In this document: piece by piece, positions 2,177 through 29,382 of the stretch | How the letters are laid out: each line of letters opens with the position of its first letter | Position numbering within the stretch: the stretch's first letter is position 1 | Origin: Daucus carota subsp. sativus | Lineage: Eukaryota > Streptophyta > Magnoliopsida > Apiales > Apiaceae | NCBI RefSeq assembly: GCF_001625215.2 | Contig: NC_030383.2 | Coordinates: 2,058,779 to 2,122,778, forward strand | Direction of reading: 5' to 3' | Length of the DNA stretch: 64,000 nt | Translations under genes and position numbers: made by a program | The notes under the pieces: generated by a model | Told to the model about the DNA's origin: nothing | The model's database searches: none | The model's input: the letters and a program-made list of their open reading frames with translations, nothing else

Positions 2177-2554
2177 TTAAATAGAATCATAGATCAGTAC
2201 ATCAGTAAGGAAATCAGGAGCGACATCTATCCACTCCTGCAGGCCTGACTCGGAATGAGACGCCCTAGCTAACGAATGAGCAACTACATTCGCAGACCTA
2301 TGCACAAACTGCACTAGCACATTTTCAAATTGCTTACTTAACTCAATACATTCACTAACAATGGAATAAAAGTAAGATCTTCCTTGCCCTCCATTAAACG
2401 CATCTGCCAGAAGTTTTGAATCCGTCTCGAACACACAATTGGAGAAACCATGCCTCTTTGTCCAGGATAGAATTTCTTTAAGACTAATAGCCTCCGCTTC
2501 CCTCACTTGCCATGTTCCACTCACCTGCTGACACATTGCTCTCACAAACTCACC
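2177..2554 (-). pseudogene. LINE RNase H domain, 3' part after MITE insertion
   Basis: This is the continuation of the RNase H domain in the minus frame after the MITE. It shows KGEFVRAM, AEAISLKEIL (catalytic Glu region), FETDSKLLADAF (catalytic Asp) and HRSANVVAHSLAR (terminal HRxxN...AH motif), the RVT_3-type RNase H usual at the end of plant L1 ORF2. It ends VLIYDSI. Before the MITE inserted it was continuous with the frame upstream. Confidence 0.88.
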
Positions 2555-2562
2555 TTTGTCAT

Positions 2563-3086
2563 CAGTGGCGGACGTACATGGAGGCTGGTGGGGGCACTGG
2601 ACCCCACTAGAATTTATAGGTTTTAATATATTATATATGATACTCATGTACATGCATAAACATAGCTAGCTGATATTGTGAAAAAAGGGTTTTGTTTTAG
2701 TCTGCAGAATTGAACATCATCTCGGGACAAAAATACAACAACACAGAGTAAGGGTGATCGAGACTTGAGAGATTAATCATCCACCTTTAATCTTCTTCTT
2801 CCAAGTTTAATGGTTATTCATCAATTACTTATTGGATGTTTATTGTCATTCCTTAATTTTCTTTTTATCCAAAAAACAGAACACGAATGAGGTTGTTTGA
2901 CGTTTAAATTTTTATTCAGAAAAAATAATAATTAAAAATGCGTTATAGAACTATACTCTACAAGAGTCTAAAAATGCGTGCAAACAGTGTACGTAAACAA
3001 TTTGATAGGACGGAGGGAGTATCTATTATGATGTCTTAAAAAAATATTTTGGCCCTCACTAAAGCTTGTGGCTGGCTCCGCCACTG
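2563..3086. mobile_element. Non-autonomous hAT-like MITE nested in the LINE RNase H domain
   Basis: The element begins CAGTGGCGGA and ends TCCGCCACTG, perfect 10-bp terminal inverted repeats. An 8-bp target-site duplication TTTGTCAT lies at 2555-2562 and 3087-3094; this length and the CAGnGGCGG-type end are typical of hAT elements. It splits the RNase H frame exactly at the duplication. No transposase is present. Near its right side (about 3010-3025) lies GACGGAGGGAGTA, a Stowaway-type end without an obvious partner, so the element may carry a piece of another MITE. Confidence 0.88.
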
Positions 3087-3094
3087 TTTGTCAT

Positions 3095-5129
3095 CTCTTA
3101 TTACTCCACCTACACCAATCGAGTGTATGCCAGAAAATATTGCAGCGTCCACATTAACCTTCACCCAACCAGCTTGAGGTTTTTGCCACTGTCTACTGCT
3201 CGAACTAACTACTGGTTTGTACTTTTGTCTCTCTGTTTGAGCCTTTCTCCAATCTGCCAAGAGATTTAAAGCAGCTGCTTTAGTACCAAACACCGACATG
3301 TCAATTTTGTCCCACACCCACTTATTACGCCGATTCCATAAGCTATAACAAAGCACTGCAACTAAGACACTCTGCTCTTGTGTAGTAGTTCTAAACAGAC
3401 GCTTGAAAATATCCATTTCTTGCTCACCTGGTACCATTTGGATCCAATCCTTCAACCCCACTGCTTCCCACACCAACCTCGCAAATGAACAATCAAATAA
3501 AACATGATTTACGTCTTCATCTCCCATACGACACCAAGGGCATCGACTATCAATCTGCACTCTTTTTTCTATCAAGGCTTTAGCTGTTGGTAAACACAAT
3601 CTACATATCCTCCATAAAAAGAAAATGATCTTTCCAGGAACCTCTAACGACCACATCTTTTTCCAAAAACCTGCATCTGGAGTACTATGTTCACCTACTA
3701 ATTTTCGGTAACAGCTTTTAACAGTAAACTCACCTTTTTCATCAAAGAACCACATCCAGGAATCATTACGACCAAAAGCAGATAACGGAATATTTTTAAT
3801 AAGCTGAACATCCCTGTCATTAAATAGATCTGTCAAAATCTCTTCATCCCATTTTCTCTCATCTGTCACCATTAAACTCGTCACAGTAGCATCCTCCAGC
3901 TCACTTGGCATTTCTGTTGTAATGTACCCATTTTCACTGTTTGGTAACCAAGGCACCTTCCATATAGAAGTCTCCAACCCCGTACCAATATTTCGACGAC
4001 ACCCCTGTTTCACAACTTCCTGAGCTTCAAGAATGCTCCTCCACATATAGCTTGGATTATTTCCCAATTTCGCGTTTAAAAAATCAGTATTTGGAAAGTA
4101 CCTTGCTTTCAGAATATTGGTTACAAGAGGATTCTCGTTGTTTAACAATCTCCAACCTTGCTTTGCTAGCATTGCAACATTAAAGCTCCTCAGGTCTTTA
4201 AAGCCTAAACCTCCAGCTTCTTTAACCTTACACAACCTCTCCCAAGACATCCACCGAATTCCTTTACTATTATTCCCTCCTCCCCACCAAAAGCTATTCA
4301 TTTGTCGTTGAATTGTCTTACACACCTCGCTTGGAATAAGCAACAAGTTCATCCAAAAATTCGGTATAGATTGTGCCGCTGTTTTTAGAAGAATGCATTT
4401 ACCTGCTTTTGACATTGCTGTGTTCCTCCAACTTTGAAGCCTTTGTCTGACACGGTCACTTAGAAAGTTAAACACCTCATTCTTTCTCCTTCCCACATCC
4501 ATAGGAAGGCCCAGATATTTTCCCGGAGTACTTCTCTCACTAACCTCCAAAATTCCACATATAGCTTCACGGTTTACTTGTGATGTGTTAGGGCTAAATG
4601 TGATAGTTGATTTTTGGAAATTAATTGCCTGACCAGACAACTCCTCGTATCTCTTTATAATGTTTTTCATTACCCTTGCTTCTGACTCTATTGCCTTGAA
4701 GAAAAAATAGCAGTCATCAGCAAAAAGTAAATGTGAAATAGCAGGAGCTCCTCGAGCCACACTACAGCCATGAATCAGACCAGCTTCTTCATTTCGTTTA
4801 ATTATCGAGCTCAGGCCTTCAGCGCAGAGAATGTATATATATGGGGACATAGGGTCCCCTTGCCTGATACCTCTTTTGGGACGAATATCACCAAAAATCG
4901 ACCCCTGTTGTAGAAAACTGTATGACACTGACTTGATGCACTTCATGACCCTTTGAATCCAAATTTCATGGAAGCCAAACTTTTTGAACATTCCCTCAAT
5001 AAATCCCCATTCCAACCTATCATACGCCTTGGATACGTCTATTTTTAATCCAGCTACACCGTTAATGCCTTGAGAACGGCGTTTAATATAATGATTAACC
5101 TCAAATGCTATTAAAGCATTATCCGGCAT
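3095..5129 (-). CDS. LINE reverse transcriptase / zf-RVT / RNase H (5'-truncated, 5' part)
   Basis: About 680 residues of a plant L1-like ORF2. Visible landmarks are KIDVSKAYDRLEW (catalytic Asp of the palm), RQGDPMSPYI, LLFADDCYFFF (the FADD active site) and YLGLPMD. These are followed by the zf-RVT zinc-binding region with FFLWRICRLCLPTAKAL and a C-P-W-C / H-V-L-F-D-C pattern. It ends in the start of RNase H (VKVNVDAAIFSG...GVIRDD). The endonuclease domain and the first part of RT are absent, so it cannot be autonomous. The frame is interrupted by the hAT-like MITE and resumes at about 2554. Confidence 0.9.
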
Positions 5130-5141
5130 TATTTTACACTT

Positions 5142-6960
5142 GGTTTCGCGTCTTCAATAGAATCTTATCATTTTATTCTTTTTCTCCGGCAGACTTATGA
5201 GTCATTGCTTAATGTTTCTTGAAATCTCTTAAAATTAATTCTAATGATCTGTTAGAATATGATCTTATCATATTCTAACATGATCCGTAAACAAACATGC
5301 AAAGAATCATTCAATCTAAAATCTTAATACGTTACGGAAAGCTCATTAATGAATCTTACACTTGTATTTCAACAAAACACAAATCGACGTGGTCAGCTTT
5401 ATATGCGAATTGGCTATATTCCTTCCATCAAAACATTTCGGTTTCATGTGATATTAGTGTTGTAAATAATAAAATGATATTTTGTTGGTGAAAGTTTTTG
5501 TCATAATTTTAAATTAGTAACTATCAAATCTTATAAAATATTTCACTATCAAGTCTCATAATTTTTTTAATATTATGATTCAAAATATATAAATATAAAA
5601 TTTTTTATCGAATAATAATTTTATTCTTACAACAACACTTTTTTCTAACCACACAACAATAATACTCTCAAACAATCGTTCATTATTTAAAAGGCTGGAG
5701 GCGAAATTAATCGGTGATCGAACTATTAATTTAGAAAATTTAATCAGCTTTAAATCTTGTCCAGCAAAATATTTCGACCATTATAAAACTATTATCGAGA
5801 AGCTGTCAGTCGAGCTTAAAATTAGGTGGAATCAAACTTTTAATATCATCCCCTTAATTCTAAATTTATTGTTTCTGTGGAATGAATAAATGATGAGATA
5901 ACCCTGACGAGACTAATGCATATTGTTGATAAGGAGCCCTGGAGGCAGCAGCCAAATTTTTGGTTGTATATGAGACTTGTCATGTGCGATGAATGGAAGC
6001 TTATCACTTTAATATTAATTTTTTTATTTATAGCATATTTGAGTGTTATTGCCTTGTGTTTCTAAAAATGTCTTGAAATTAATCATACACAAACTTTTGC
6101 ACTCCATTAACAGCACAAATCGACATGAATTGCTTTAAATTCATTTTCGAAGATAAGATCTTTAAAATAATTTTGTCTCCTATCTTCGAAATGTTAAAAT
6201 TCTCATGATATTGTAATAATACGAATTATTGTTCGGGAACCAAAAAAAATTAACATCTAATAAACCGGAAATTCTTAGACACATCGCCCATCTGTCTTGA
6301 CATGTTGGCACCAGCTTTGCTAGGCTAGATAAGGATAAGAAACTCAAGACTATTCTGGTTTCAACAAGCCGCAAAACCCCCCGGTTTTCAAATTTCAGCT
6401 GCTAGCACCGACTTGTAAAAATCACGCAGCTTGTTGGCAAACAAAATTTCGTAACAAATTCCTTGATGACTCACTTAAAATTCTTAGGAACTTATTCCAG
6501 AACAATACTCGTAATATCACAAATTTCGAACCGAGAGATCGATAAATCGGGATCCTGATATAATTTTTTTGCGAATATTGAGTTAGAGAATTAATTTTTT
6601 AATATTAGTTGGAAATGCATTGCCCTGTACGGACCGTTACTTGTTAGGTTCGTTGATGTCCTACCAAAGAAAAACGAACAAATAATTTAAACTTGAATAT
6701 GATTAATTACAATTATTTAATTATGTAAACTCATGAGCAAAGTCTTGAGCCACCGGATGCTGACAAAGCTTAGTTAGCAATGTTAGAACACGGACTTTCA
6801 AGTCAAACTTTGACAAAATTGTTGTTCCAATAAGCTTTTGCCTACCATTGTAACAAAATTTTGTCACCTTTTCTTATTTATTATCTTAATCTCCGTTGAT
6901 CATGTCTTATCTGGTTGGCTCTGAATTATTCCACTCTTTCACCTCTCTTTCCCCCTTCAC
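5142..6960. other. Intergenic; short perfect hairpin, no gene
   Basis: AT-rich. At about 5252-5280 there is a near-perfect hairpin, GTTAGAATATGAT with its reverse complement separated by 3 nt. Near 5700 a fragment resembling the dispersed AATCGGTGAT-type repeat occurs. Short frames such as 5297-5491 and 6180-6374 show no domain. Confidence 0.45.
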
Positions 6961-7044: not shown

Positions 7045-7170
7045 CTCGTTAACGGAGAAATCTGGTGATAACAGAGGAATCTGGTGATAACAAAATTCAG
7101 TACGAGTCGAACCTACTACAATTGTCTAGTGAAGCTAGCATAACCAAAGTTTGTCATTTAGGGTTCAAGA

Positions 7171-7758
7171 ATGGGTGGCAAAGGGCATCACAACAAGTTA
7201 TTGAGGATCATAACACTACCATTTAGGTTCTTGAAGAAAGGGAAAGACATGTATGTGAAGAGCATGATGGATGTAGCATCAAAGCCAAGATATGGGAGTA
7301 GCCAAAACATGATGGGATCAAGGAACAAGAGCTCAAAAGCCAGCTCAGCTCTGCCCAAGAGTTTTAGCACAAGCTATGCACCTTCATTGTCATCAACTAA
7401 TTTCGATGGTGATGACTTGAAGGAGCTCATTAGAGCCAACTCCACAACTTACAATAACAATGATCCAACTAATAAGTTGAGAACAGAGATGGACTTATAC
7501 TTGAAACAAGTGATTAAAGAGCAACAAGTGAAGAAGCTCAAGGAGAGCTTGGTGATGGGGACTAATAGTAGGCTTTCGTCGTCTCAAGGGGTGGTTCCGA
7601 GGAGTGTTAGTGTTGGAATGGGGAAGATTGATGAGGAGAAGCCTTTTGAGGAAGAGGAGGAAGAAGAAGAGGATAGTATTCAAGTGAAGAAGAAGAAAGA
7701 AGTCATGTTTCCAAGAAGTAGAAGTCATGCTGTTTCACAAACAACTGCTGTGTTTTGA
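7171..7758 (+). CDS. Plant-specific basic protein of unknown function
   Basis: A single-exon gene of 195 codons starting at the first ATG after a CT-rich leader. The N terminus reads RIITLPFRFLKKGKDMYVKS, resembling plant proteins that begin with a basic LPFR-L-KARDFYVRSM-like motif. A Ser-rich segment follows (about 45-75), then a predicted helix around 100-130 (LRTEMDLYLKQVIKEQQVKK). Next come a VPRSVSVGMGKIDEEKPF motif, an acidic run (E-rich, about 160-172), a Lys run and a C-terminal FPRSRSHAV. There is no signal peptide or membrane segment. I do not recognise a described function; the basic N terminus could bind membranes or partners, but that is a guess. The full length and absence of breaks suggest a real gene. 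Confidence 0.82.
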   Translation: MGGKGHHNKLLRIITLPFRFLKKGKDMYVKSMMDVASKPRYGSSQNMMGSRNKSSKASSALPKSFSTSYAPSLSSTNFDGDDLKELIRANSTTYNNNDPTNKLRTEMDLYLKQVIKEQQVKKLKESLVMGTNSRLSSSQGVVPRSVSVGMGKIDEEKPFEEEEEEEEDSIQVKKKKEVMFPRSRSHAVSQTTAVF

Positions 7759-14429: not shown

Positions 14430-14663
14430 ATCCAAATAGTAGCAACTTGCAAGGGCCCTATGACAGACAACAAGTGATACTGGGCCTCACATCACACCCT
14501 CTCCCTCCACCACCATGAAGGCATGAACCCACCAGCCTACCCCAAACTCATCACTGGCAAGCTCTTCATGGCCTTGAGCATTTGCCCTTCTTTCTTCCTC
14601 AACCGAAACCTCGGAGACAGTCTCTCGCAATGCAAAGAAACCCAACTCACTGCCAGGCTCCCT
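14430..14663 (+). pseudogene. 5' fragment of a CYP28-type cyclophilin gene
   Basis: This stretch repeats the start of the intact gene at 26.5 kb, including untranslated sequence (CTTGCAAGGGCCC, CAAGTGATAC, CACATCACACCC, CTCCACCACCATGAA). The coding part matches residues LFMALSICPSFFLNRNLGDS of the intact LFMDLSICPSFFLNRNLGDS and stops at about Gln-Leu-Thr-Ala-Arg-Leu. Relative to the intact copy the segment encoding the transit peptide is deleted, and everything after about 14663 is unrelated. It is a non-functional duplicate, on the same strand and about 12 kb from its source. Confidence 0.88.
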
Positions 14664-15106
14664 TATGTTGATTTTTGCTGCACATGAAAAATGGCTACCA
14701 GCTTAATAAGCAGATTGCCTGAAGAACCTTATTGCCTGATATTGCAAACTGAAAAGTTATTTAAAATAGAACCTTATTGCTTATTGTACTAGAGGTTTCA
14801 ACTAAATATCAAAATCATGTTCTTATAATTCGGTGTTAGCACCCCTGCAGAATGACCAGTAGAATGATCTTAATTATCAGCAACGCAGATCTAATACCAT
14901 GTTAAGTTAGCAGTTCTCGGAGGGCTTACCAGGATGATAATAATTATATTCTAAAACGTTCGAAGAACAAGAGACAAATAGATGCCAGTGCCAACTGCCA
15001 AATACTTGATACCGGTAGGGCTAAAAAGTTTAAATTATTCACAAGATGAAGACATACATACGCAGTGCAAATTATTACAACAATATTATATATAGTCACT
15101 GGCAAT
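14664..15106. other. Intergenic, no gene
   Basis: No domain, repeat or RNA gene recognised between the cyclophilin fragment and the inverted duplication. Confidence 0.4.
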
Positions 15107-15204
15107 CACTATATGAAACTCCATAGATACAAATAAACAAGACAATAAAGTGTGCCAAAAGCACTAAGGCCCCCCCACAAACATACTTGTGCACATCTTT
15201 GTCA

Positions 15205-15396
15205 TTATTCATCATCACCATTTTCAGGATTGATCCTATTATTGTTGTTGTTGATTGTGGAGGTAACGCAGCCAACCATCGTCTCAGCCATCATCTTTTT
15301 CACCGACTTCTTTTTAGCAGGAATCACGGTTGCAGGCTTCTTCTTTCCATTACTTTCACTTCCTTGAGTACTTGAACTTCCCTTCTGGTCTGACAT
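15205..15396 (-). CDS. 63-aa basic microprotein, copy 1
   Basis: A 63-residue protein: a Ser/Gly/Gln-rich start (MSDQKGSSSTQGS), a basic centre KKKPATVIPAKKKSVKKMM, a short region with one Cys (AETMVGCVTSTI), an Asn run and an acidic tail. It has no signal peptide or membrane segment; the Lys-rich centre could be a nuclear signal or nucleic-acid contact, which is inference. It differs from copy 2 at 5 of 63 positions (E14G, V41A, T45A, T47A, G60D) with no frameshift or stop, which argues that both are real genes. TATA-like GTATAAAG (minus strand, near 15483-15490) lies about 94 bp upstream of the ATG. I do not recognise the family. Confidence 0.75.
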   Translation of the reverse strand: MSDQKGSSSTQGSESNGKKKPATVIPAKKKSVKKMMAETMVGCVTSTINNNNNRINPENGDDE

Positions 15397-15482
15397 TATC
15401 TTCTGATGAATGCTCTCACTTCCTTTATGTATTTATATCAGTTGTTTTGAATGTTTTAATCAAATCAAGCCTCTTTCATCTC

Positions 15483-15490
15483 TTTATACT
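15483..15490 (-). promoter_or_regulatory. TATA box of microprotein copy 1
   Basis: GTATAAAG on the minus strand, about 94 bp before the ATG, at the position equivalent to the TATA of copy 2. The following leader shares ACAACTGATATAAATA with copy 2. Confidence 0.6.
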
Positions 15491-16952
15491 CATCATCAAC
15501 GCGTTAATTCTATTGATGTCTGTAATTTCTATGAAATTATTGTGCATTTGAGGGAACTGCAGCTTTAAGCTCATTCACTTTTCTATCACACCATCTCTCT
15601 CATATATTTTGTGTCGCGTGGGAGTGATCTTAGCTTCACACTAGTGCAGCCCGGCTAGCTAAGTCCATTGTTGTGGGACAGAATGGAAGGTTACCATCAA
15701 TTAGAGAGAAAGTACATAGTAAATAACATGAAAATAACTTTGTATTTAAGCACATTTGCAGTTAATTTCCCTGAAATTTGAAATCATTACAAAAAAATTG
15801 TATTTTTATTTCTGAACTGCCTCCGGCCACGTATTAGATGGAAAGGTGAGAACTTTGCCGCGAAATGACGATAGTAGTAAAGTAGGCAAGTGGTCAAGAA
15901 AAATTAATCAGCAGCTTCTTTTCATCTGTAGTTCCCCAGCAGCAGCAACTCACATATTCTGGGAAATAATTATTGAAATACAGCATAAGATACATTTGGG
16001 GTCTTTTTCTAAAATCTTAAGATTTTAGATGTACTGGTTCTCAACATGGTAATCAGAGCTCGGATTTGGCGGAGGTCTCAAGTTCGACCATGATCCACTC
16101 TTAGCGGAAAATATTTTCATGTGGCTTTGCAGTCCATAGAAAATAAAATGTATTCCGAGTAGGAAAATAACTTTGAAAAAAGCTATGAATTCCTGAAAAA
16201 TGACTTCCAGTTTTCAAAACAAAAAAATATTTGCCCACCAATTTTCATAATCTTTTTTCATAACCATCCAATTACATAATATTTACCCTGAAAGTAATTT
16301 TGGACAAATATTTACTCAAAAATATATTTATGAAAATCAAGTTACTTTCTAACAAACAAACGGAAGTTTACTACAAACTGCTTAACTAAGCTTATTTTCA
16401 ACCCTCAATTTTAGCAATAACATTTGTTGATGAGTGTGTTCATACCGTTCTATTCAATAACAATGCAGCCTTACTACCTAGCTATTTCCTTGAATGTGTG
16501 ATTGGTGCTGCTGGGGCAGGGTAACCACAGGTGAAAACAAGCTCCAGATTAATTTGTCATGACCACTTGCACGCTTTACTGCTATTGTCATTTCGCGGCA
16601 AAACTCCCTCCTTTTCATATAATACGCGGCTGGTGCAAATCCAGAAGAAATAAAAAATAAAAATTTCATGTTATGCTTTAAAGAAATTATGAAAATTAAT
16701 CGCAAATGTGCTTGAATACCAATTTCTTTCCATTTTTTACTATGTACTTTCTTCGCAAATTTGGTGAAAATCTAATTGATAGTGACCTTCGGTTCTGTCC
16801 CACAACAATGGACGTGGCTAGCCTGCCTGCACTAGATTGAAGCTAAGAAGTGATACAAAAGTGAATGTGTGCGTGAGCCTGCAATTCCCCCCGAAATGCA
16901 CTATAATTTCCTAGAAAATATAGAAATTGGAAGTAAGGCATCGCGGTTAAGT

Positions 16953-16962
16953 ACTATAAAAG
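16953..16962 (+). promoter_or_regulatory. TATA box of microprotein copy 2
   Basis: ACTATAAAAG about 100 bp before the ATG at 17055. The leader between them (AGAGGCTTGCATTTGATTAA onward) matches the copy 1 leader in reverse orientation. Confidence 0.65.
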
Positions 16963-17054
16963 GTATGTAAGAGGCTTGCATTTGATTAACAAAACATACA
17001 AAACAACTGATATAAATATATTCAAGAAGTGAGATTTTCATTCATCCGAAGATA

Positions 17055-17246
17055 ATGTCTGACCAGAAGGGAAGTTCAAGTACTCAAGGAAGTGGAAGTA
17101 ATGGAAAAAAGAAGCCTGCCACCGTGATTCCTGCTAAAAAGAAGTCGGTGAAAAAGATGATGGCTGAGACGATGGCTGGCTGTGTTGCTTCCGCGATCAA
17201 CAACAACAATAATAGGATCAATCCCGAAAATGATGATGATGAATAA
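17055..17246 (+). CDS. 63-aa basic microprotein, copy 2
   Basis: The paralogue of the minus-strand gene at 15205-15396, transcribed away from it. It has the same architecture: MSDQKGSSSTQGSGSNG, Lys-rich KKKPATVIPAKKKSVKKMM, AETMAGCVASAI, five Asn, then NPENDDDE. The ATG is the first in the deduced transcript and a TATA box sits about 100 bp upstream. The 3' flank, through TTTGTCTTGTTTATTTGTA, is also shared with copy 1. Conservation of frame in both copies supports translation. Function is unknown; its small size and charge resemble regulatory microproteins but no family is recognised. Confidence 0.8.
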   Translation: MSDQKGSSSTQGSGSNGKKKPATVIPAKKKSVKKMMAETMAGCVASAINNNNNRINPENDDDE

Positions 17247-17337
17247 TGACAATGATGTGCACAAGTATGTTTGTAAGGGGTCTTAGTGCTTTTAGCACTT
17301 GTTTGTCTTGTTTATTTGTATTTATACAGTTTCATAA

Positions 17338-18363
17338 AGTAATGTCTACTCTTCCTGTGTAGAATGAAGTTTATGGTTTAACCAGTTTGGTTTTTCTTGA
17401 TAATTTACTCTGTGTATGTCTTAAGGTTGTGAATGAATAACAGTTTTTTACTGTACTGGTACTTCTTCTCTCTTGTTCTTGGAATGTTTTTCAGCGTACA
17501 AAATAGTCGAGACTAGTTAAACCTAGTTTATGATTGCTGACTGTTTATCTTTTTGTCCGGAAGTTGGAACCTAGTGAATTGTTACATAAAATCATGGTCG
17601 CAGAAATCGAGAATGAGATCTAATTGGTTGATCTGCCGATTCAGGATTTATCGTAGATTTTTCCAATAAATCGAATTTTTTTAGTCAAATCACAGTATAA
17701 TGATAAATCAGTAAAATATATTTAAAGGAATAATCGCGGATTTTTGGAACACTGCAGCTCTAACTAATTAATCATTCTAGTATAAACCAAAATTGAAAGA
17801 TCTAGATCATTAGAACAAGGATAAATGAAAACACAGAATGTAAGTTATAGTGATTATGTTCCCTCACTTCCCCATCACCTGAGAGTACATATGTTTCAGA
17901 TTTCTGGATCCAAGTACAGGCTGAGCGATTTAAAAATAATCACATACATAAACAAACAAAACAAAAGGAGGTGGTGACTGGTGAAATATATTAACAAAGG
18001 AAAACGAGAAACATGCATAGAAAGAAAAGCGCTTATTAGATAGTATCACATTCAAGCCTCAAGGTACCAATATCTTATTATCTTGGACTTGCTGATGCGA
18101 GAAGTGTTATTTTGGGATAATTCCTTGTCCTTTTTTTCCCCTACTTTCTTCCATAAAATATGTGTTTTATTTCATGGCGGAGGTGCCGCGGGATTACGAC
18201 CCCTTCCGGCATTGTTTCTGAGGTGTTCATTTCCGAGCCACTGCATCTGCTAGAAGATTTAGAGTTGTCAATTCTCAAGTTTTATTTAACAGAATAATTT
18301 ATTGATGATTGTAATTCCTGTCATTTTGTGCAGTTTTCTACTACCGCAAGTTTTTAACATACC
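17338..18363. other. Intergenic; one dispersed-repeat copy
   Basis: 3' flank of the microprotein gene, then AT-rich DNA. About 17585-17760 contains one copy of a dispersed repeat (AATTGGTTGATC...GATTTATC...AAATCAGTAAAATAT...GGATTTTTGGAACA), also seen near 26150, 35030 and 58480. No gene seen. Confidence 0.45.
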
Positions 18364-18941
18364 AAAATCAGTGTGTGATCACTCATAAATATGAAGAAGT
18401 CATATAAGAGACAGTAATAGTTATATATCTGAATTCTTTATTCTTTAAAACATGATAGTATTTCTTTTCAATCAATTTGACTGCATATAAGAGACTTGGA
18501 AAACTACACATACAAACTTCAGGATTACTAAAGATTAATTAGGTCCATTAGCGTTGAGAGCTACCTTACTTATATATGTACCATCTCAAAGTTACACAGA
18601 GCAAAACTAGTAAATGTCCTACAATTATTTTTCAAATTTTGTGCGCAAGGTAGATACGTTTTTGCATCCCTATTGACCAGGGGAACCAATATTTCTATTC
18701 ACGGAGATGAAATACGTTTTAAATAAAGGCTGATTGGATATTTTGTAGTATGATTGCTTAAGAAAATATCTGAAAGTATAAGAGAATAACATGAATATAA
18801 CTTTGATAAAAAGAATCCTCAATATAATTAGCTGGTGTATGATAGGATTAGTTAATAAGCCGAATAATAAGCTTAAAATAGACAGTTTTATCAAAGCTAA
18901 TAAGTTGCGCTAAGACAAAATTTTCACTGGTGTGAGTGCAG

Positions 18942-21900
18942 GTTTACTGGACGAGAATAATGTCTGGTGCTCAAGTGATGAGGAATGTAGCGAAATTGTC
19001 CGACGTTTCTATGAGAGCTTATTTACATCAACAATACCTGCAGTTGATAAGATAGAAGAATTGCTGAGCTCTGTTCAACCCGTAGTTACTGAAGATATGA
19101 ACAGAATATTGGATAGAGATTTTTCTGGCGAAGAAGTAAAGAAAGCCATGTTCTCAATCTCGGCAGACAAAAGCCCAGGAACGGATGGTATGAATGCCAT
19201 GTTTTACCAACAACATTGGGACGTTGTTGGCCCGCTCGTGACAAAAGCAGTGCTGGATTGTTTAAATGAAAAGGAAGATCTTGACTCGATAAATTCAACA
19301 CTGGTCACACTTATTCCCAAGGTAAAAGAGCCCACTTCGGTAGGAGATTTCCGCCCAATAAGCTTGTGCAATGTTTTTTATAAAGTAATCTCAAAGGTTC
19401 TGATCAACAAACTCAAACCAATTCTACCTTTAATTATAAGTGGTACCCAAAGCGCTTTTGTCCCGGGTAGACTTATAACAGACAACGCTTTGATTGCCTA
19501 TGAATGTTTACACCATCTAAGATTAATGAAAGGAAGGAAAAAATGTTATGTTGCAATGAAGCTAGACATGAGTAAAGCTTATGATAGAGTAGAATGGTGC
19601 TTCGTGGAAAAAATACTACTGAAAATTGGTTTCTCTGAAGGATGGGTGAACAAGATTATGAGATGTGTTAGTTCGGTGCGTTACTCGTTTCAAATAAATG
19701 GCCAAACATATGGGGATGTGGTTCCATCAAGAGGACTACGACAAGGAGATCCACTATCACCATACTTATTTCTTATTTGTGCGGAAGGTTTGTCAGCCCT
19801 TATACGTCAAGCAGAAGACAAAAGAGATATTCTTGGTCTAAAAATAGCACGAAATGCGCCATCTATAAGCCACTTATTCTTCGCTGATGATAGTTTGCTT
19901 TTTCTAAGGGCCTCGACAAGATCATTACAGTCTATCCAGAACATATTTTCATTATACTCGGAATGCTCAGGGAAGGTAAGATTTTTAAAAAACAATACTT
20001 TGTTGATTGATGAGTCAAATTCATATTAGATCAGGTTTATTTAGATAGAAAATAAAGAGTAAATGTTAGTGTTCTAAGATCTTTGTCTTGATGTATACTG
20101 ATGGCAACTTTGTCTATGTGCAGATGATCAACTTTAATAAATCAATTTTATGCTTCTCCCCGAATACTACAGAGGATGTACGAGAGGTATTTATATCTTC
20201 CTTAAGTATGCAGATGAGTGAGACTATTGAAACATACTTGGGATTACCAATGATGGGGGGAAAAACAAGAAAATCTTGTTTAGATCAATAAAGGACAGAA
20301 TATGGTCGCGATTACACTCTTGGAAGCCAACTCTCTTTTCACAAGGTGGAAAGGAAGTTCTTTTGAAAGCTGTAATCCAAGCCATGCCAACATATTTTAT
20401 GTCATGTTTTAGAATTACAGATGGGCAATGTCAAGAAATTGAAAAGTTAATGGCACAATACTGGTGGGGGTCTTTCCAATCGAAAAGAAAAATTCATTGG
20501 AGAGCATGGAAGAAAATTAGTGTACCAAAAAGTGAGGGAGGCTTAGGATTCAGAAGTTTCTCACAATATAATCAAGCTTTACTTGCTAATCAAGCATGGA
20601 GGATATTATCAAATCCTACTTCACTCACTGCACAAGTCCTACAAGCTAAATACTTCACAAATACAAATTTTTTGGAAGCAAATGAGGGAAGTTATCCATC
20701 TCTGACATGGAGAAGTATATGTTGGGGGAAAAGTCTACTAGTTAGAGGATTAAGAAGGCGAATAGGTAATGGGGAAAATATTAATGCTTACAAAGACCCT
20801 TGGATACCACGACCACCATCCTTCTTACCGATAACAAGAGGATTAAACGACAATATGAAAGTTTCCGAATTCATACAAGAACCAGGTAGATGGAATTATG
20901 ATCTGATCCAACAAAGGTTTTTGAGTCCAGATTCCGAGCTTATATTAACAATCCCGTTGAGTCCTTTCAACCATATAGACTCATGGTTGTGGCACTATAG
21001 TAAGAATGGAAGCTATTCAGTAAAAAGTGGTTATAATCTGGCGATTAGAGAACACAAAGATGGTCCATCTTCATCTTCAGAGGTGTTAGCAACATGGTGG
21101 AGAAAGTTTTGGATGATTAGAATACCACGAAAAATCTTACTTTTTGGGTGGAGAGGTTTTCACGAGATATTGCCAACGATGAAAGGTTTGAAGCGTAGAA
21201 ATATTTCTGGGCATAGCAATTGCCCAATATGTGGATTTGGTGAAGACTCAAATGCACATGCAATATTTTGGTGCCATTTCGCACAAAATGTTTGGGCTCT
21301 CCTCGAATTTCCATTCCTGATGGGACAAAAAGAAGATATATTTTTCAAAGATGTGCTACTGTACACCACTGAATTTTTGAGTGAGGAAGATGTTGAGATG
21401 ATATTAATCACTGCATGGGGAATATGGTCTGAAAGAAATAAACAAACACATGGCCAACAAGCAAAAGATCCATAGCAACTAAAAGTTGGTTTAACTTCAT
21501 ATCATGAAGAAATAAAGAATGTACAAATGCCAGAGGCAGAAGCTGGACCTAGAAAGGAAGAGGGACAGAGGGAACAACCTGAATTAGAACTTCATGATCT
21601 TACTCTGTTTGTTGATGCAGCTTTAAATACAACCACAAATATGATAGGGGTTGGAGCAGTTATCTTTAATTACCGTAGATAAAAGGGCTCAAGCCACACT
21701 CTCAAAACCACTTAAAGGTAGTTTATTAGTCTTCCATGCGGAAGCACTAGCGTTATTGGTGGGGCTGCGGTGGGCTGAAAATATTGGTTTGCCCATTAAG
21801 ACTATTTCATCTGATTCGTTGATGCTGGTCCAAGCATTGAATAACTCAAAGGTCTGCCACAATGAATTGGGAATGCTCCTGGATGATATTAAAATGTTGG

Positions 21901-22046
21901 TGGCAAACTTTCCTGGAGCAATTATTACCCATGTGAATCGCAAGTTCAACATAGCAGCTCATAACCTGTCCAAACAGGCCCTCCAATTAGACGATGAATT
22001 AATATGGATGGAAGATGACCTGCAGAGCACAGAGAATCATATGTAA
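18942..22046 (+). pseudogene. Decayed LINE reverse transcriptase / zf-RVT / RNase H
   Basis: The frame begins GLLDENNVWCS, runs through DKSPGTDGMNAMFYQ, LVTLIPKV, DFRPISLCNV and KLDMSKAYDRVEW (palm Asp), then RQGDPLSPYL and LFFADDSLLF (FADD active site) to ECSGK at 19975. A 148-bp intron-like segment follows, then MINFNKSILCFSPN and YLGLPMMGGK. A one-base indel in a G run near 20254-20260 shifts the frame. The zf-RVT part is visible in 20276-21475 (CPICGFGEDSNAHAIFWC). A stop at 21473 and another frameshift near 21676 break the RNase H (LFVDAAL...HAEALALLVGL...SSDSLMLVQAL...VNRKFNIAAHNL). It is not functional as it stands. Confidence 0.9.
19976..20123 (+). other. Intron-like 148-bp segment inside LINE RT
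   Basis: GGAAG|GTAAGATTTT at the left and TCTATGTGCAG|ATGATC at the right. Removing it joins Ser-Gly-Lys to Met-Ile-Asn in phase 0, matching the uninterrupted ECSGQ-MINFNKS-type sequence of plant LINEs. The segment is T-rich and contains stops. It has the features of a spliceosomal intron, which is unexpected in an element that copies through RNA. Confidence 0.75.
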
Positions 22047-22053
22047 GTATGAA

Positions 22054-22157
22054 AAATATAGTCAGTATGGTTGTTAGTGCTTTTATTAAAATAAACTGAG
22101 CTAGTAAATATAGTCAGTATTGTTATTAGTGCTTTTAATAAAATAAACTGAGCTAGT
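22054..22157 (+). repeat. 52-bp tandem duplication in LINE 3' region
   Basis: Two adjacent copies of a 52-bp unit (22054-22105 and 22106-22157), each containing AAATATAGTCAGTAT and AATAAACTGAGCTAGT. It begins just after the RNase H frame. Confidence 0.85.
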
Positions 22158-24837
22158 ACGATATTATTAAGAGGTCCAGAATTCAAATATTTAATAGTAA
22201 GAGATAAATAAAAAGAAACAGACGACTTAAGAACATATTCAGAATTTGATTATTGCCCTGTTAGAAGCTTAAGCTTTATGTTTGATCTTTTTCCTTGTTA
22301 TAGCATGGTAAGTTTAACAGCCACATTTTTTACCAACAGGTTATGAGCTATGCAGCCTTTAAAACCATATCATCACCTACTTGTATAACCTGATTTTCTG
22401 CTTTGTTTTTCTATCTATAGCCCATCCGTTATTAATCACGGACCTCAAATATGAGTCGTTTTAATTTTACTTTTAGGTTGAGATAAAAACATAGTTCTAT
22501 TTATTAATCAATGTCTTACTCTGGAAGAGAGGAGGCTAAGCTTTTCTCAGTCAAAAAACTGCTCAAACTGCAGGAAGTTCTCATTTACATTTTTCTCTGA
22601 TTTTACGTCTGAATGTTTAGCCTAACGTCAATCTTCTTTCTTTTTAAAAGTTCTTGAATTGAAGTATTGTTTAATATTGACTCATGAAATGCTGTTTATA
22701 AGTTAAGACTTCTTGGTGAGTTTTGTTGCATTTCATGGGGAGCTAGGTGTTTTATTTTCATGGGGATGTACTTGTTTTATCCTCTTGCAGACTGATAGTA
22801 GTAGGGCTAATACAAAAGCTATTGACAAATTGAAACCAGGGCCTTAAGGGTCTCCGATGAATTTTTATAGATAAAAATGGGTTGTTTTTTCCAATCAAAC
22901 TACTCTCTTCTGGTCTGTCTTTTAATACTACCGATAAAAATATTTTCTTTGTTTTTTCGCTGGCTACTATTTATGTTGAGTAGTGAAAGAATTGTTTGGT
23001 CGGTAATTAGAGGCAGCCCTGTTAGGATTCAGTTAAATTTGTGAGAAATGAGGGTTGAAATGTTGCCTGCAAAGTGGAGGGGAGGTTTGTTATCCGGCCA
23101 ACATTTTTTAGGGGAGCAGAGGGGTTTTGTGCTATGGAATTGCATGACTCTGGTACCTTCTGATTCATGCTGCAGCCCGAACCCTGTAATTCTTTGAGAT
23201 GTGTTGAAATGGCAACAAATGCTAACATCCCTCGGGACTATATTCCAAGGACAAGTGTTGATCTAATCTAGGATCTCTTAGCTTTTAAGCCAGAGGTTCC
23301 TTCAGTAAAAGAATTATATACAATTTTCTGTTCTAAATAAAAATTTATATTTCACTTTGTAATAAATATTGAATTATATTTAGAGTTATATGTTTTAGCT
23401 CATATTAAAGATAAATTAAAATGATACTTATTTGGGGTCGGGGAGTAATAAATAGATGGATAATAGAGAGGAAGTCATAGTAGAATATGTAGATTATACA
23501 AGTAGGTAATGACATGGGCTTAAAAGCTGTATTGTTGTTGGTTATATTGAGGTAGTTAATATTTTTCAGAACCAGTTTTAACTACTTTTAGCTGTCGAAA
23601 CTCTCATTTTATTTGGTAATGTTGTTCTCAATAGGAGACATACTGATAGATTTTCTTGTCTCTTATGGTTAAGTTCCATATATTTTGGTCAGTATTTTGA
23701 CTCTATTGCTTTTATCAATTCATCGGAGCTAACTATTTAATGATTAAGAAATCTTGTATAATCATATGTTAATGATTGCGGCATCATGTTGGTAATTGGC
23801 TAGACCCTTGTAGCAATACAATCGGAGTAGGTATTGTCTTTTAAGGACTAATCCGTTTTTTGGCACAATTGAGTGGACATTTTAAAATAGGCAATTCTTT
23901 TTAAGGTGCTTGTAAATGATCAAGTCATGGCACTTTATTGTTTTTAGTCATGGCAGGAGGAATATTTTGTCTTGTTGTTTGTAAAGTTGACTTCTTACCC
24001 GAAAGAGATCTTGATCTTCATGATCGCGGATCGGTTTGACTCTGCTTTTTTAATTGTCTAGCTTATCTCTGATGTTGAATAATGATTAGTCCATGACTAT
24101 ATGGGTTAGATTTTATAATGCTGATAAATTCACATGAATATATCAGGGAGGAATAGAAGCAAAGCTAGGGACTCAGTGCCCATGCAAATTCGAAAGCGGA
24201 AACCAGGGTGTTCGGAGGAATCGAAAAAATGAAACGGTTAACCACCAGGCTTTGATGATGAGTTTTGATCTCGCTTTTCAATAGCTTCCCTTTGAGGTAC
24301 TGGGTGCCTTGCGTACTCTATGTGTTTAACATTTTAATCAGTGTTTTCTGAACTATTGACATAGATTAAATAACTACTTTGCATCTGTCTTTCATATGTT
24401 TGTTCAGCGTGCCTATTTGTATTAAAGTACTTATCTTATTATTCTTAAAAGAGATTTTTAAAATGCTGTTGGTTAAAAATTAGGGGTGTGATTCTGGATA
24501 TTGTTTATGGATTAATATTCCTTGGAACTTTCAGCTGGTTATGAAGTAATAATAGCCATAGGCAAGCAACGAGATTTCTTCGAAGCCCTATAATACTATT
24601 TAAGAATCTCAGCAACTATTCTTTAGTCTCCTTTCTGTAATGCACTTGTTTTTATCTTGAATTTGACTTGATTAAGTGCTGGGATTCTTGCCTCTTTAAT
24701 GCCGGTTATTACAATAAGGCCTATTTCAATGTAATTGTATGCTGAAGTAGTTTCTTTTCATGAATGACTTTCTTATTACTTGCAACTTTTTGGTTTTCTC
24801 TCCTTCTGGTCCTTATAGTTAGTCTATAAAGAGGATT

Positions 24838-24841
<4 letters not shown>
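22158..24841. other. LINE 3' region, exon-like and intron-like blocks
   Basis: No protein domain is found. A strong donor AT|GTAAGTATG lies at 22041-22049 at the end of RNase H. Possible acceptors are CTCTTGCAG (ending 22790) and ATATATCAG (ending about 24146). A GC-richer block of about 150 bp at 24147-24296 ends TTTGAG|GTACTG. A second GC-richer block lies at about 23010-23250. These look like exons of a longer transcript carried by the insertion, but nothing in them is recognisable. Confidence 0.4.

Positions 24842-24902
<61 letters not shown>
24842..24902. repeat. (TA)n microsatellite
   Basis: About 30 uninterrupted TA repeats. Confidence 0.97.
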
Positions 24903-24904
<2 letters not shown>

Positions 24905-25053
24905 CCTTACTTAGTTATTAGAGGCACCATGAGAGTCAACTATATGAAATAGTATTAAATTCATTTTCTTTGTCAAATAGTTATGTAGGTTAACAGTTGT
25001 GCGCTTTTTATTAGTTGTACTTTTCTCAATAATTGGTTGTGAGTAGTACATTT

Positions 25054-25122
25054 GTCAGAGGATAATTCCCTTTTATAAGATATACCATGTCAGAGGATAA
25101 TTCCCTTTTATAAGATATACAG
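25054..25122 (+). repeat. 35-bp tandem duplication
   Basis: Two adjacent copies of a unit starting GTCAGAGGATAATTCCC and containing TTTTATAAGATATAC, offset by 35 bp. Confidence 0.85.
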
Positions 25123-25499
25123 ATCTGTTGAATTTTGTCTTCTAATAGATACCTGCTTGTTTATAGCTGATAGTATCTAACCAAAGGATTTCCCTTTGGT
25201 TCGATACTATCATAGTAATTTTCTCTCTAGTTTCTTTCAACACTTTGCTTTGATGTTTTTTATTTCAGGATTTCTTCCTTCCTTCTTTTCTCTGGTATCT
25301 TTCTTATCTCCCTTCTCTATATTTCTTTGTTCATATTGTTCTTTGTCACATCCTAGTTTCTTTGATCTTTTTGCTTTTGGCGCCTCTTGGTGTAATCTTC
25401 TCTTTTCATCTCTTCTTGCTGTGTTCATGTATCTAGTTTTTTCTATTTGTTTCTTCTTTTTTCTCTTTTCTTCTCGCTTTATCCTCCCTCGTGTTTTGC

Positions 25500-25827
25500 G
25501 TGTCTATTTGTTTTTGCATATTCAGGCTCTGAAGTGTCACTGTCTAAGTGTCCGGAGACATCTATGCGTGTCTTTCGGTTAGATGGTGGACTTTAGTGAA
25601 TGAATTTTATTTGGCTTTCTTCTGCTTCGTGTCTTATTTGTTTTTGGGTGTTTTCTTTTCGACAGTGAGAAGATTTTATCTAAATTTTCGGGGACATCGC
25701 TGCATGGCCTACGGTTAGATGAAAAAACTTTTACTTGATGGAAAGAAGCCATTTCTTTCGGTTATTGTACTATGGTACAACTCTTTCACGTGAAAGTGTC
25801 TTATGACAAAAAAAAAATAAATAAATA
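25500..25827 (+). repeat. LINE 3' tail with two copies of a terminal module, then poly(A)
   Basis: A module with the pattern TCTAA-T-T-CGG-GACATC-T-GCATG followed by ACGGTTAGAT appears at about 25538-25580 (decayed, CGGTTAGATGG) and again at about 25674-25720. It is shared with the retroposon ending at 55098. The A-rich tail is at 25807-25827. Shared 3' ends are usual in LINEs whose RT recognises its own RNA tail. Confidence 0.65.
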
Positions 25828-25843
25828 AAAATCAGTGTGTGAT

Positions 25844-26488
25844 AAACTAGTGCACCACGCAATACGGAGAATCCTCCATATTTTAACTATTTTATTTAAT
25901 TTCTTGAGTCTTACTAAATACTAACTGCAAAGTACTTCTAGAAATTAAAAAAAAATAGGGAATATTTTCACTATTTTTTTTAATTTCTAAAAATCTTGCT
26001 AACTCAATATGATTCCTCTGACGTTCGTTTTTATTGTTTGCTCTGGATCTAATCCACCAATTTTGAAAAAAGGATACTTGAACGAGTTTTTTCGAAAATT
26101 TTCAATGTGCCGAGTTCAAACATCTACTTATTAATTAAATTTTAAAAATTTTGACAACTATTTTAAATCATGATTATAGATCGATTAGAAAATTTTATCA
26201 GAGATTTGCTGAATGAATTAGAAATATTTTATTATATTAGATTATAATTGATAAATTGGTGATTCTTATTTTTTTAAAAAATAAATTAAATTTTATTATT
26301 AAATCAAGAAGCACTAGAATACTGCAGTTCAAATAGTTAATTATTGCTTTCAAAAAAAGTTAATTATTAAAGTAATTTCTTTTCGAAACAACTATTAAAA
26401 TTTTAATTTATTAATCATCCAATCCAAATTATTCCAAAATGGTAGTTACAACAATACAACTTGCAAGGGCCCCATTGACAAAAAACAA
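25844..26488. other. Intergenic; dispersed-repeat copy
   Basis: AT-rich; about 26150-26290 resembles the dispersed repeat also near 17600, 35030 and 58480 (TTTTATCAGAGATTTGCTGAAT). No gene. Confidence 0.4.
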
Positions 26489-26531
26489 GTGATACCCAAT
26501 AGCTCACATCACACCCCCTTCCTCCACCACC

Positions 26532-26549
26532 ATGAATCCACCAGCCTAA
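26532..26549 (+). promoter_or_regulatory. 5-codon upstream ORF overlapping the cyclophilin start
   Basis: ATG AAT CCA CCA GCC TAA at 26532-26549. Its stop codon shares one base with the next ATG (TAATG at 26547-26551), which is the chosen start of the cyclophilin. This arrangement would suit termination-reinitiation. In the pseudogene copy at 14.5 kb the same MNPPA codons run on without a stop. Confidence 0.55.
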
Positions 26550-29382
26550 TGAGCTACTCAACCACCACCCTCCTCCACACCCCCCCTACCCCCCACCCCC
26601 ACTCCCACCCCTACCCCCTTAAACCCCACCACCCCACCTTCCCCAAACGCACTCTCCTCCTCTCCACCCCCCTCCTCACCCTCCCCACCCCCCTCTCCTC
26701 ACCCTCCCCACCCTCTCCCCCAGACACCACCATCACTGACAGGCTCTTCATGGACTTGAGCATCTGCCCTTCTTTTTTCCTCAATCGAAATCTTGGTGAT
26801 AGTCTTTCACAATGCAAGGACACCCAACTCATTGGCAGGCTCATTCTTGGCCTCTATGGCAACCTTGTGCCTATCACAGTGTCCAATTTTAAGGCCATGT
26901 GTACTGGGACTTCAGGGTCTTCGTATAAAGGCACATTGGTGCATAAGATCTTTCCGGGCCAGTTTTTTGTCGCGGGGAAGCAGGGGAGGAAGGATAAGGG
27001 GGAGGTGAGTCCTCCTGTGAAGATGGTGAGGAATTTGGAGACTGTGAGTTCTAAGGCCTTTGAGTTGAGGCATTCTAAGGCCGGGGTCTTGTCGTTGTGC
27101 TTGTCGGAGAATGATGATGAGGATGATGTTAAGTTGGATCCTAATTATCATAATGTGGAGTTCTTGATCACTACTGGGCCTGGTCCTTGTCCTGATCTTG
27201 ATGGCAAGAATATTGTGTTTGGGACTGTTCTTGAAGGTGAATTTTGCTAAAGTTTCGATTTTTTTTGTTTCTTGATGTGAATCTGTATAGTTTTAGCATT
27301 GTCTGTTTATTTGATTTGTGTAGATTAAAGAATGTGTTCACTTGTAAATAAATAGGCAATTAGGTTTTGATGAGGACTGAAGGCAGACACTCGTGTTTGA
27401 TCCTCGAACCCTCTTCCACTAAAATGCTAGGGTAAATGATTTTATGCATCTTGTGCTGTAATACATATGAATTTAAACGTCTTTACACGGTATTGCCTGG
27501 AGGTTGGAGTATGAGTCACATTCTATCTGAAGTATTAAATAACAGTTTAGACTCCGAAATTCCAGATTTCCGATAAGTAGAAGAATATGTCTTCTAATTG
27601 ACAATTAATAGGCTCTTCTAATTGACTGTTAGAGTCTTCAAACATGTATAGGTTTTTGTATAACAATGATTGTATCATTATATTGTACACTTTAGTATTC
27701 TTACCTCATTAATGTATAGTTTACTCATTGTTTAACAATGATTGGGTAAGTGTGTTGATTATAAAAAAAAGAGAGTATGAATTAGCAGATATACCACAGA
27801 ATTGAAATGTTTTTCTAGTGTTTGTCGGAGAATGACGGTGAGGATAATTTTAAGTTGGATCCTAGTTATCATAATGTTGAGTTCCTGATAACTACTGGTC
27901 CTGATCTTGATGGCAAGAATATTGTAATTGTGTCTGTTCTTGTAGGTGAGAATTCTACTAAAGTTTTGAGATTTTTTTTTCCTTGAAGTTGGATTCCGTA
28001 TAGATTGTGCCATTTTTTATTTATTAAATTAATTTGCGAATAAAGATTGTTATTTGTTATAAAAAGATAGACTAAAACGTTATTATCTATGATAAGGATA
28101 TTGTGTTTGCTTCTGTGCATGAAGATTCGAACTTTATATGAAGTTAGGATCTTTGTAATTCCTTGAAGTGCATTACTAAAGTGTGTAGCACTGTTTTCTT
28201 ATTTGATTGATGTGTGGTTAAAAATTTTAATTAGTTATACTTAGATGGGTAATCAGGGTTCTGATGGGGCTTCAGGGCAGACACACATGTCTAACACTCG
28301 AACTCCTATTGACTAGAATGAAATAATTAGTTGCTAATTTGTACGCATTGACAAATAGATGTATCGCCTGTTTTAGTTTAACTTTTCTACCCAAAATGTG
28401 GTGAAATTTGATATTCCGAAAAATCAAGTCTTATACCTTCACCTTTTTATTTATTTTTTTCTGAACTGAGACATCTTTTTTATCTGCTCCATTCAAGACT
28501 TTAAGATGGTTTTACTTCTGAACTCTGAGGATCTGTCTCGTTTGTGCCTTCTGTAAATCCTAATATAACATTTGGTTATGTACTTATTGACTGTAATTCG
28601 TTAGTTTAGAAAGTACTTGAAAATTTTGCTTCCTAGAAGTTTGCAAACTGTAATGCCTCACTCATCAAGTATAGTGTTGTCGGACTTCGCCAGAGCTTCA
28701 TATCAATGAGACTGAGCTTAAATTATTCCTATACAGTATAAATTTGCTAAGATGCTATATTCCTTGGGGAACTTTCTGTATGCGGATATTTTAATATAGC
28801 CTTTGTTTAAGATTAAAGGTAGACAGAGTGATAGACTTTGGCAGATCATACTTGTGTGCAGTAGATAGAAAACTAGTAATCAGAACGTCTTTCTATAGAA
28901 TTGCCTGGAAGTTGGAGTGCAAGTCACAATCTGAGTTATCAATTAACAGTTTAGATTCCAAATTGCCAATAAGTAGCTCTTTTGATTGATTGTTAGTGTC
29001 TACAAACCTCTATAAGTTTTTTGCGTGACAATGATTGTGTTATCAAGTTGTGCAAATTAGTATTCGTATCACTAATGTACAAACAGCTCATAAATACGAA
29101 ATAGCAGAATTACCACAAAACCGTTCTTCATGTGTTTTCCAGTACATTAATCACTGCTGTTGAATTTTTACAGGGTTGGATGTAGTCACATCCATAGCTT
29201 CAATCCCCACTTACAAGCCAGGAGAACGTATCCGGCAATATAATGATTTGGCAGAATTTTTTGGAGATGAGAGAGCCAAAACTGCCCGTGCAATCTGGAA
29301 CAAGCCCCTTGAGACTGTATATATCAGTGACTGTGGAGTGCTCAAAGTGGCGAAAACAACTCTTTCGCCTACTCTACCTTGA
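26549..29382 (+). CDS. CYP28: Chloroplast CYP28-type peptidyl-prolyl isomerase (cyclophilin-like)
   Basis: Two exons, 26549-27236 and 29174-29382, encode 298 residues; the GAAG|GTGA...TTTACAG|GG junction is phase 1. The N terminus (to about residue 60) is rich in Ser, Thr, Pro and His with few acidic residues, as in a plastid transit peptide, and continues to TITDRLFMDLSICPSFF. The cyclophilin-like domain shows RLILGLYGNLVPITVSNFKAMC, YKGTLVHKIFPGQFFVAGKQG, LSLCLSENDDEDDVKLDP, VEFLITTGPGP and DGKNIVFGTVLEGLDVV. The end (FGDERAKTARAIWNKPLETV) is typical of the plant CYP28 group. Family members are thylakoid proteins with divergent active sites, so isomerase activity is uncertain. The start at 26549 is preferred over an upstream ATG that opens a 5-codon uORF. 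Confidence 0.88.
27237..29173 (+). repeat. Cyclophilin intron containing decayed copies of exon 1 end
   Basis: The 1.94-kb intron holds a copy of the end of exon 1 at about 27820-27945 (TTGTCGGAGAATGA, TTAAGTTGGATCCTA, CTTGATGGCAAGAATATTGT). A more decayed third copy lies near 28088-28150 (GGATATTGTGTTTGC). The intron sequence after each is also repeated: GGCAGACACTCGTGTTTGATC near 27384 against GGCAGACACACATGTCTAACAC near 28278, and TTGCCTGGAGGTTGGAGT near 27493 against TTGCCTGGAAGTTGGAGT near 28902. The intron grew by successive local duplications of exon-plus-intron. Confidence 0.85.

Follow-up and report, generated by a model that had tools for sequence, protein, structure and literature searches.

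The carrot DNA analysed here, a stretch of 64,000 nucleotides from Daucus carota subsp. sativus (contig NC_030383.2, positions 2,058,779 to 2,122,778) which is called the window throughout, contains at 18380-25827 a single 5'-truncated insertion of an L1-type long interspersed nuclear element (LINE). The second open reading frame (ORF2) of this element is divided by two introns, A and B, which are fixed in position across one LINE clade, with splice sites that are mostly kept and intron bodies that have largely diverged. New copies in this clade were made with the introns in place. It is very probable that target-primed reverse transcription (TPRT) produced the window copy from a plant L1-clade LINE with two old spliceosomal introns in its ORF2, the spliced RNA being translated and the unspliced RNA being the template. 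The parts of the insertion, all on the plus strand, are as follows; a slash marks an exon-intron junction here and below.

18364..18379, plus strand: left copy of the target-site duplication (TSD), 16 bp, an exact 16-mer found otherwise only at 25828
18380..18941, plus strand: 3' part of intron A, within which the insertion is 5'-truncated; acceptor TGTGAGTGCAG/G, the AG at the same position in 8/8 copies examined
18942..19975, plus strand: ORF2 exon, reverse transcriptase (RT; Pfam RVT_1, 3.2e-29; human L1 ORF2p, 2.9e-37)
19976..20123, plus strand: intron B (148 bp), running from GTAAG to TGTGCAG and lying in phase 0 between SGK and MINF; same codon boundary in 12/12 clade copies with both flanking exons
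20124..22046, plus strand: ORF2 exon with the remaining RT, zf-RVT, RNase H and the stop TAA at 22044-22046 (Pfam and translations)
22047..25520, plus strand: long 3' region, best read as a 3' untranslated region; partial homology to L009, L010, L011 and L014; an exon proposed at 24147-24296 is unsupported
~25168-25210, plus strand: 43-nt hairpin, recurring in relatives
~25216-25520, plus strand: pyrimidine-rich stretch within the 3' region
25521..25806, plus strand: conserved family 3' tail starting TTCAG/GC (acceptor-like), from genome matches and alignment
25807..25827, plus strand: A-rich tail, read from the sequence
25828..25843, plus strand: right TSD copy, 16 bp, exact 16-mer

The 16-mer AAAATCAGTGTGTGAT occurs exactly twice within the window, at 18364 and 25828, and the 3' end of the insertion (TTATGAC-A10-TAAATAAATA) abuts the second of these. 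When the upstream 20 kb was shuffled 1000 times under a dinucleotide model, a match of at least 16 was reached in two of the shuffles (query, the 40 bases from 25821), a test which does not demand adjacency to the A-rich tail, whereas the real match does adjoin it. The perfect repeats enclose one unit of 7.4 kb, which carries the domains RT, zf-RVT and RNase H and is A-rich at its 3' end. An earlier reading made from the letters alone (the sequence-only reading) had noticed the 16-bp duplication around 7.4 kb and the poly(A) tail, and both stand; several independent insertions, which it had named as one finding that would overturn it, were rejected for 18380-25827 since the TSD encloses a single unit. 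The hallmarks of L1-type insertion, namely poly(A) tail, TSD and 5' truncation, are all present in this copy. Comparison of the window with itself revealed no repeat longer than 70 bp linking the two insertion ends, hence no long terminal repeats (LTRs).

The RT-RNase H frame of the sequence-only reading was confirmed by Pfam matches to RVT_1, zf-RVT (9.9e-15) and RVT_3 (RNase H, 3e-17), and human L1 ORF2p was the top PDB match of the RT. The window copy is disrupted by frame changes at ~20270-20285 and ~21669-21681 and by an in-frame stop at 21473-21475. An APE-type endonuclease (EN) upstream of the RT was found in the relative L033 (L071), which extends into this domain (Exo_endo_phos, 9.3e-10), while the 5' truncation of the window copy removes the region. 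The element is a plant L1-clade LINE of the EN-RT-zf-RNase H type. Its ORF2 departs from the uninterrupted ORF2 of L1-clade LINEs by its two introns; in our view an uninterrupted ORF2 is usual in the L1 clade and not defining.

Intron B splits the RT frame precisely between ...ECSGK and MINFNKS..., and removal of its 148 bases restores the frame (...FSLYSECSGK/MINFNKSILCFSPNT); in the window copy it holds five in-frame stops. Other copies were sought with positions 19700-20600 in one genome of 441 Mb on 11 contigs, the counts of matches and places given here coming from the matches listed and being lower bounds. At least 22 matches from 20 candidates were obtained, more distant relatives not being counted: 17 at 15 or more distinct places of the clade, three to the LINEs L046-L048, and two that were short and not fetched. 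Both flanking exons were present at 12 of these 15 places, every one of which is interrupted by an insert at the intron-B codon boundary; L038 and L044 retain the acceptor side only, and L036 starts further downstream. The gap bounded by splice sites that had been read in the RT is thus shared by every copy in which the comparison could be made. Its donors all begin with GT (GTAAG, GTCAG, GTAAA, GTAAT, GTACA) and its acceptors are mostly GCAG/ATGATYAAYTT. GT and AG are both kept in 10 of the 12, the acceptor having decayed in L041 and L042.

Length of intron B ranges from ~83 to 424 bp among the clade copies. In the seven copies examined there are 4-7 in-frame stops per intron and an AT content of 0.71-0.78, compared with 0.62 in the RT exon of L030. 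Among intron-B bodies of five lineages, eight of ten pairs were 45-51% identical, and shuffled intron pairs (n=400) gave a mean of 46%, a 95th percentile of 56% and a maximum of 65%; the two more similar pairs were L029/L030 (58%) and L030/L032 (71%). The B site is uninterrupted in four LINEs of ~45% protein identity, L046-L048 and one on the minus strand of the window (2180-5153). In a tree, the intron-bearing copies formed one group against these four with support of 100/99. As a separate observation, intron B of L043 holds an insert resembling a miniature inverted-repeat transposable element (MITE), with the ends TACTTCCTCCATCCC...GGGATGGAGGGAGTA.

Intron A lies upstream of the RT exon, with its acceptor at 18941/18942 (TGTGAGTGCAG/GTTTACTG in the window copy) at the same position in all eight copies examined. 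The suspicion that the left end of the insertion begins in an intron was therefore correct. The donor, LIK-G/GTAYG, was found in four of the eight, L030-L033, where the frame runs ...NTKFFHQRAN.RNK..LIK-G/GTAYG... and resumes at /GT (or GC)-TTG-TTT..., giving the joined linker LIKGLFNEEN; the intron is 560 bp long in L030 and L031, and 469 bp in L032 and L033. This linker is uninterrupted at the intron-A site in L047 and L048, and was not found within the 711-732 bp fetched upstream of L034, L035 and L045. Based on their GT...AG borders, the restored frame and the AT-rich body, introns A and B are probably spliceosomal, and both are predicted to be spliced.

The RT exon (1035 bp) was used to assess age and selection. 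Synonymous divergence (dS) was saturated in 17 of 28 pairs, and in nine of the 11 pairs with measurable dS the ratio of nonsynonymous to synonymous change (dN/dS) was 0.06-0.19. This exon has thus evolved under purifying selection.

Evidence that copies arise with their introns comes from two sources. The window copy starts in intron A directly after the TSD, so that its template RNA still held intron A. L032 (contig C1) and L033 (contig C8), each with introns A and B, differ at 27 positions in 3896 bp (99% identical), stop at the same base, and continue with A19 and A15, respectively, and then with unrelated flanks. Exon 2 is open for 632 amino acids in both, and L032 breaks off inside the endonuclease domain at the end of a Stowaway-like repeat. 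Likeness in the sampled flanks of the pair extended to the points 1, 2 and 3 kb downstream; those at 4 and 6 kb, and all five sampled upstream, were dissimilar. The shared end base, differing poly(A) lengths and unrelated flanks indicate two separate insertions of polyadenylated RNA. Together with the truncation of the window copy within intron A, this pair argues that unspliced RNA was retrotransposed. The spliced intron-B junction had no exact match genome-wide (reversed control, 0), while the acceptor junction of unspliced intron B had 10, all in loci already identified (reversed control, 0). The sequence-only reading had offered the copying of an unspliced pre-mRNA and a family with stable introns as alternatives; both hold together, as the two ORF2 introns are clade-wide and the window copy is truncated in intron A. 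Its further proposal of a multi-exon 3' region found no support.

A primary transcript with two fates may be envisaged. The spliced fraction would be translated into the EN-RT-RNase H protein, and would be the messenger because introns with stops block RT coding in unspliced RNA. The unspliced fraction, probably nuclear, would be bound through its conserved 3' tail and its poly(A) tract, and would serve as the template for insertion, TPRT having presumably generated the window copy. If the spliced form is the messenger and the unspliced form the template, the protein must work on an RNA molecule different from its own messenger. Whether this division of labour is obligate, so that spliced RNA supplies the protein and only unspliced RNA is copied, the introns marking genome from messenger and the protein acting in trans, we regard as an evenly balanced question.

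At least 40 scored matches, from 80 candidates, came out of the search for further copies with the same 3' tail, which the sequence-only reading had proposed and which was run with positions 25640-25806. In an alignment of 11 copies of the tail the mean column identity was 84%, and the hairpin unit TCTAA..TTAGATG occurs twice within the tail. Five of 20 tail relatives (L019, L026, L022, L020 and L024; no chance control) have direct repeats of 12-18 bp at their flanks, and none of at least 12 bp was found in the other 15 of the set L009-L028. Points at which relatives become alike differ, being 24644 onwards for L009 and, in pieces, 22805 onwards for L011; in L016, 3.9 kb separates the tail from the end of RNase H. 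Strong hairpins are predicted in the tail and in the segment preceding it. They are suggestive; a tail RNA structure as a proven feature was rejected, covariation support being weak, with only one of 72 predicted pairs changed on both sides. Rfam gave no match at gathering scores. A near-perfect 43-nt hairpin around AACCAAAGGATTTCCCTTTGGTT recurs in L009, L011, L014, L015, L016, L017, L024 and L069, some of these relatives having altered outer stems.

Pieces of ORF1 fused to later parts of the element were also observed, in L011 (to the 3' region, the piece at oriented ~7100-7660), L038 (to intron B; the piece at L038:857-1135 has a DUF4283 match) and L040 (to the RT). The joins overlap by GG in L011 and CACAT in L038, with no canonical splice site seen at either. 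They look like internal jumps or deletions, and the three copies could be internally deleted, non-autonomous ones.

Spliced exons might also occur in the 3' region (22043-25525), giving three or more introns, which we consider rather unlikely. The proposal gains from a GTAAG which in L029, L034, L035 and L016 follows the RNase H frame, and from the TTCAG with which the tail opens: 10 of the 12 copies with a best match beginning there have kept it, and TTTCAG/G recurs in L032. The GTAAG, however, includes an in-frame TAA stop in the same four copies, and in the window copy GTAAGT at 22043 overlaps the stop of the RNase H frame (22044-22046), for which reason it was rejected as a secure donor. 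The frame ends without GTAAG in L030-L033, and the motif is absent from L036 and L038. TTCAG is not kept in L019 and L027, nor just upstream of the match in L020, which starts later and reads TTCAT, and L019, with its 18-bp flanking repeat, is unspliced through the TTCAG point. L011, the sole relative with sequence around the acceptor proposed at 22790, offers no test of it, since its likeness begins at 22805, 15 bases beyond that site, at the join to its ORF1 piece. The multi-exon 3' region is therefore unsupported, though not fully refuted.

If the template were not unspliced sense RNA and were an antisense transcript, or another that cannot be spliced, as has been suggested for Penelope, this would account for the finding of no spliced and 10 unspliced junctions, but the sense-strand 3' poly(A) and the 5' truncation fit priming on polyadenylated sense RNA, and this origin is judged improbable. 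Equally doubtful is a domesticated, host-gene-like LINE family which duplicates as DNA, its introns persisting with no RNA step and the window copy being exceptional. RT-bearing copies are indeed few (15 clade places among the matches listed) and purifying selection is strong; against this stand the shared end base, different poly(A) lengths and unrelated flanks of L032/L033, the TSD and tail of the window copy, and the 12-18 bp repeats around five of the 20 tail-family copies. Least probable of all is a one-off capture, in which an intronless LINE gained introns, for example within a host transcription unit, and a lone unspliced pre-mRNA was copied: it would explain the unspliced window copy truncated inside intron A, but both introns are clade-wide with dS saturated in 17/28 pairs, and other recent copies carry them.

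Several points weigh against a single old, intron-bearing family copied from unspliced RNA. Both the splicing and the existence of two RNA pools are predictions from DNA sequence, and the comparison is limited to one genome. The near-identical pairs L030/L031 and L032/L033 have dN/dS values of 0.55 and 0.42, respectively, on very few changes, and stops occur in exon 1 of L033 and, after 218 codons, in exon 2 of L030, so recent copies may be decaying. A warning of long branches in the tree concerns the four LINEs without introns. No TSD was detected for L032, the ends of L033 not having been searched for one; apart from the window copy, the pair L032/L033 alone links an RT to this type of tail. 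Spliced copies with a mutation inside the 29-base pattern escape an exact-pattern search, and accidental splicing could conceivably lie behind the ORF1-piece joins in L011, L038 and L040.

Other features of the window include the minus-strand LINE at 2180-5153, a second L1-type element with zf-RVT and RNase H, whose RNase H frame is broken by a few hundred bases containing CTCCCTCCGTCC; this insert we take to resemble a Stowaway-type MITE. A 0.9-kb inverted repeat pair (15105-15968 and 16483-17343) is 77% identical. Positions 14443-14660 and 26457-26842 share 84-86% identity, one of them lying in the open frame 26399-27250, which suggests a duplicated gene piece. At 50839-51123 a tandem repeat of ~51 bp is open as a protein frame (HLSRFNESVSVRHSDQI repeated).

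Copying through RNA should strip an element of its introns, and the protein of a LINE is expected to copy its own messenger. A clade that has carried two ORF2 introns through saturating dS, and for which the spliced intron-B junction was not found, fits poorly with both expectations, and offers a natural system for asking how a LINE picks its template and in which cell compartment. A literature search on intron-bearing LINEs, covering listings and the beginnings of abstracts, returned no plant LINE with introns. Human L1 gives rise to splicing products such as SpIREs by accidental splicing, and spliced copies are regarded as dead insertions. The carrot clade is similar in that the spliceosome would meet LINE RNA; it differs in that exact patterns picked up no copy with intron B spliced out, and in that its protein would depend on splicing.

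Among plant elements, the closest comparison is Celine of poplar, an L1-clade LINE with a DUF4283 ORF1 and an EN-RT ORF2, whose transcripts are described as unspliced, with two ORFs and a TSD average of 15 bp (PMC11288735). EN and RT, poly(A), 5' truncation and TSDs are common to both, as is DUF4283 if the piece in L038 is counted; the carrot element is set apart by an ORF2 split by two conserved introns and by zf-RVT and RNase H. Penelope-like elements likewise retain spliceosomal introns and are able to spread intron-containing DNA (PMC3846280). Those elements have a GIY-YIG endonuclease and terminal repeats, unlike the APE-type endonuclease, poly(A) and L1-type RT found here. For Ogre, an intron is reported to be removed from only a subset of transcripts, enabling translation of the whole polyprotein (PMC6317226), and for BARE distinct RNA pools are reported (PMC3735527). 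Partial splicing for translation, as it would occur in the carrot clade, resembles that of Ogre; Ogre and BARE are LTR elements, whereas the carrot element is a LINE.

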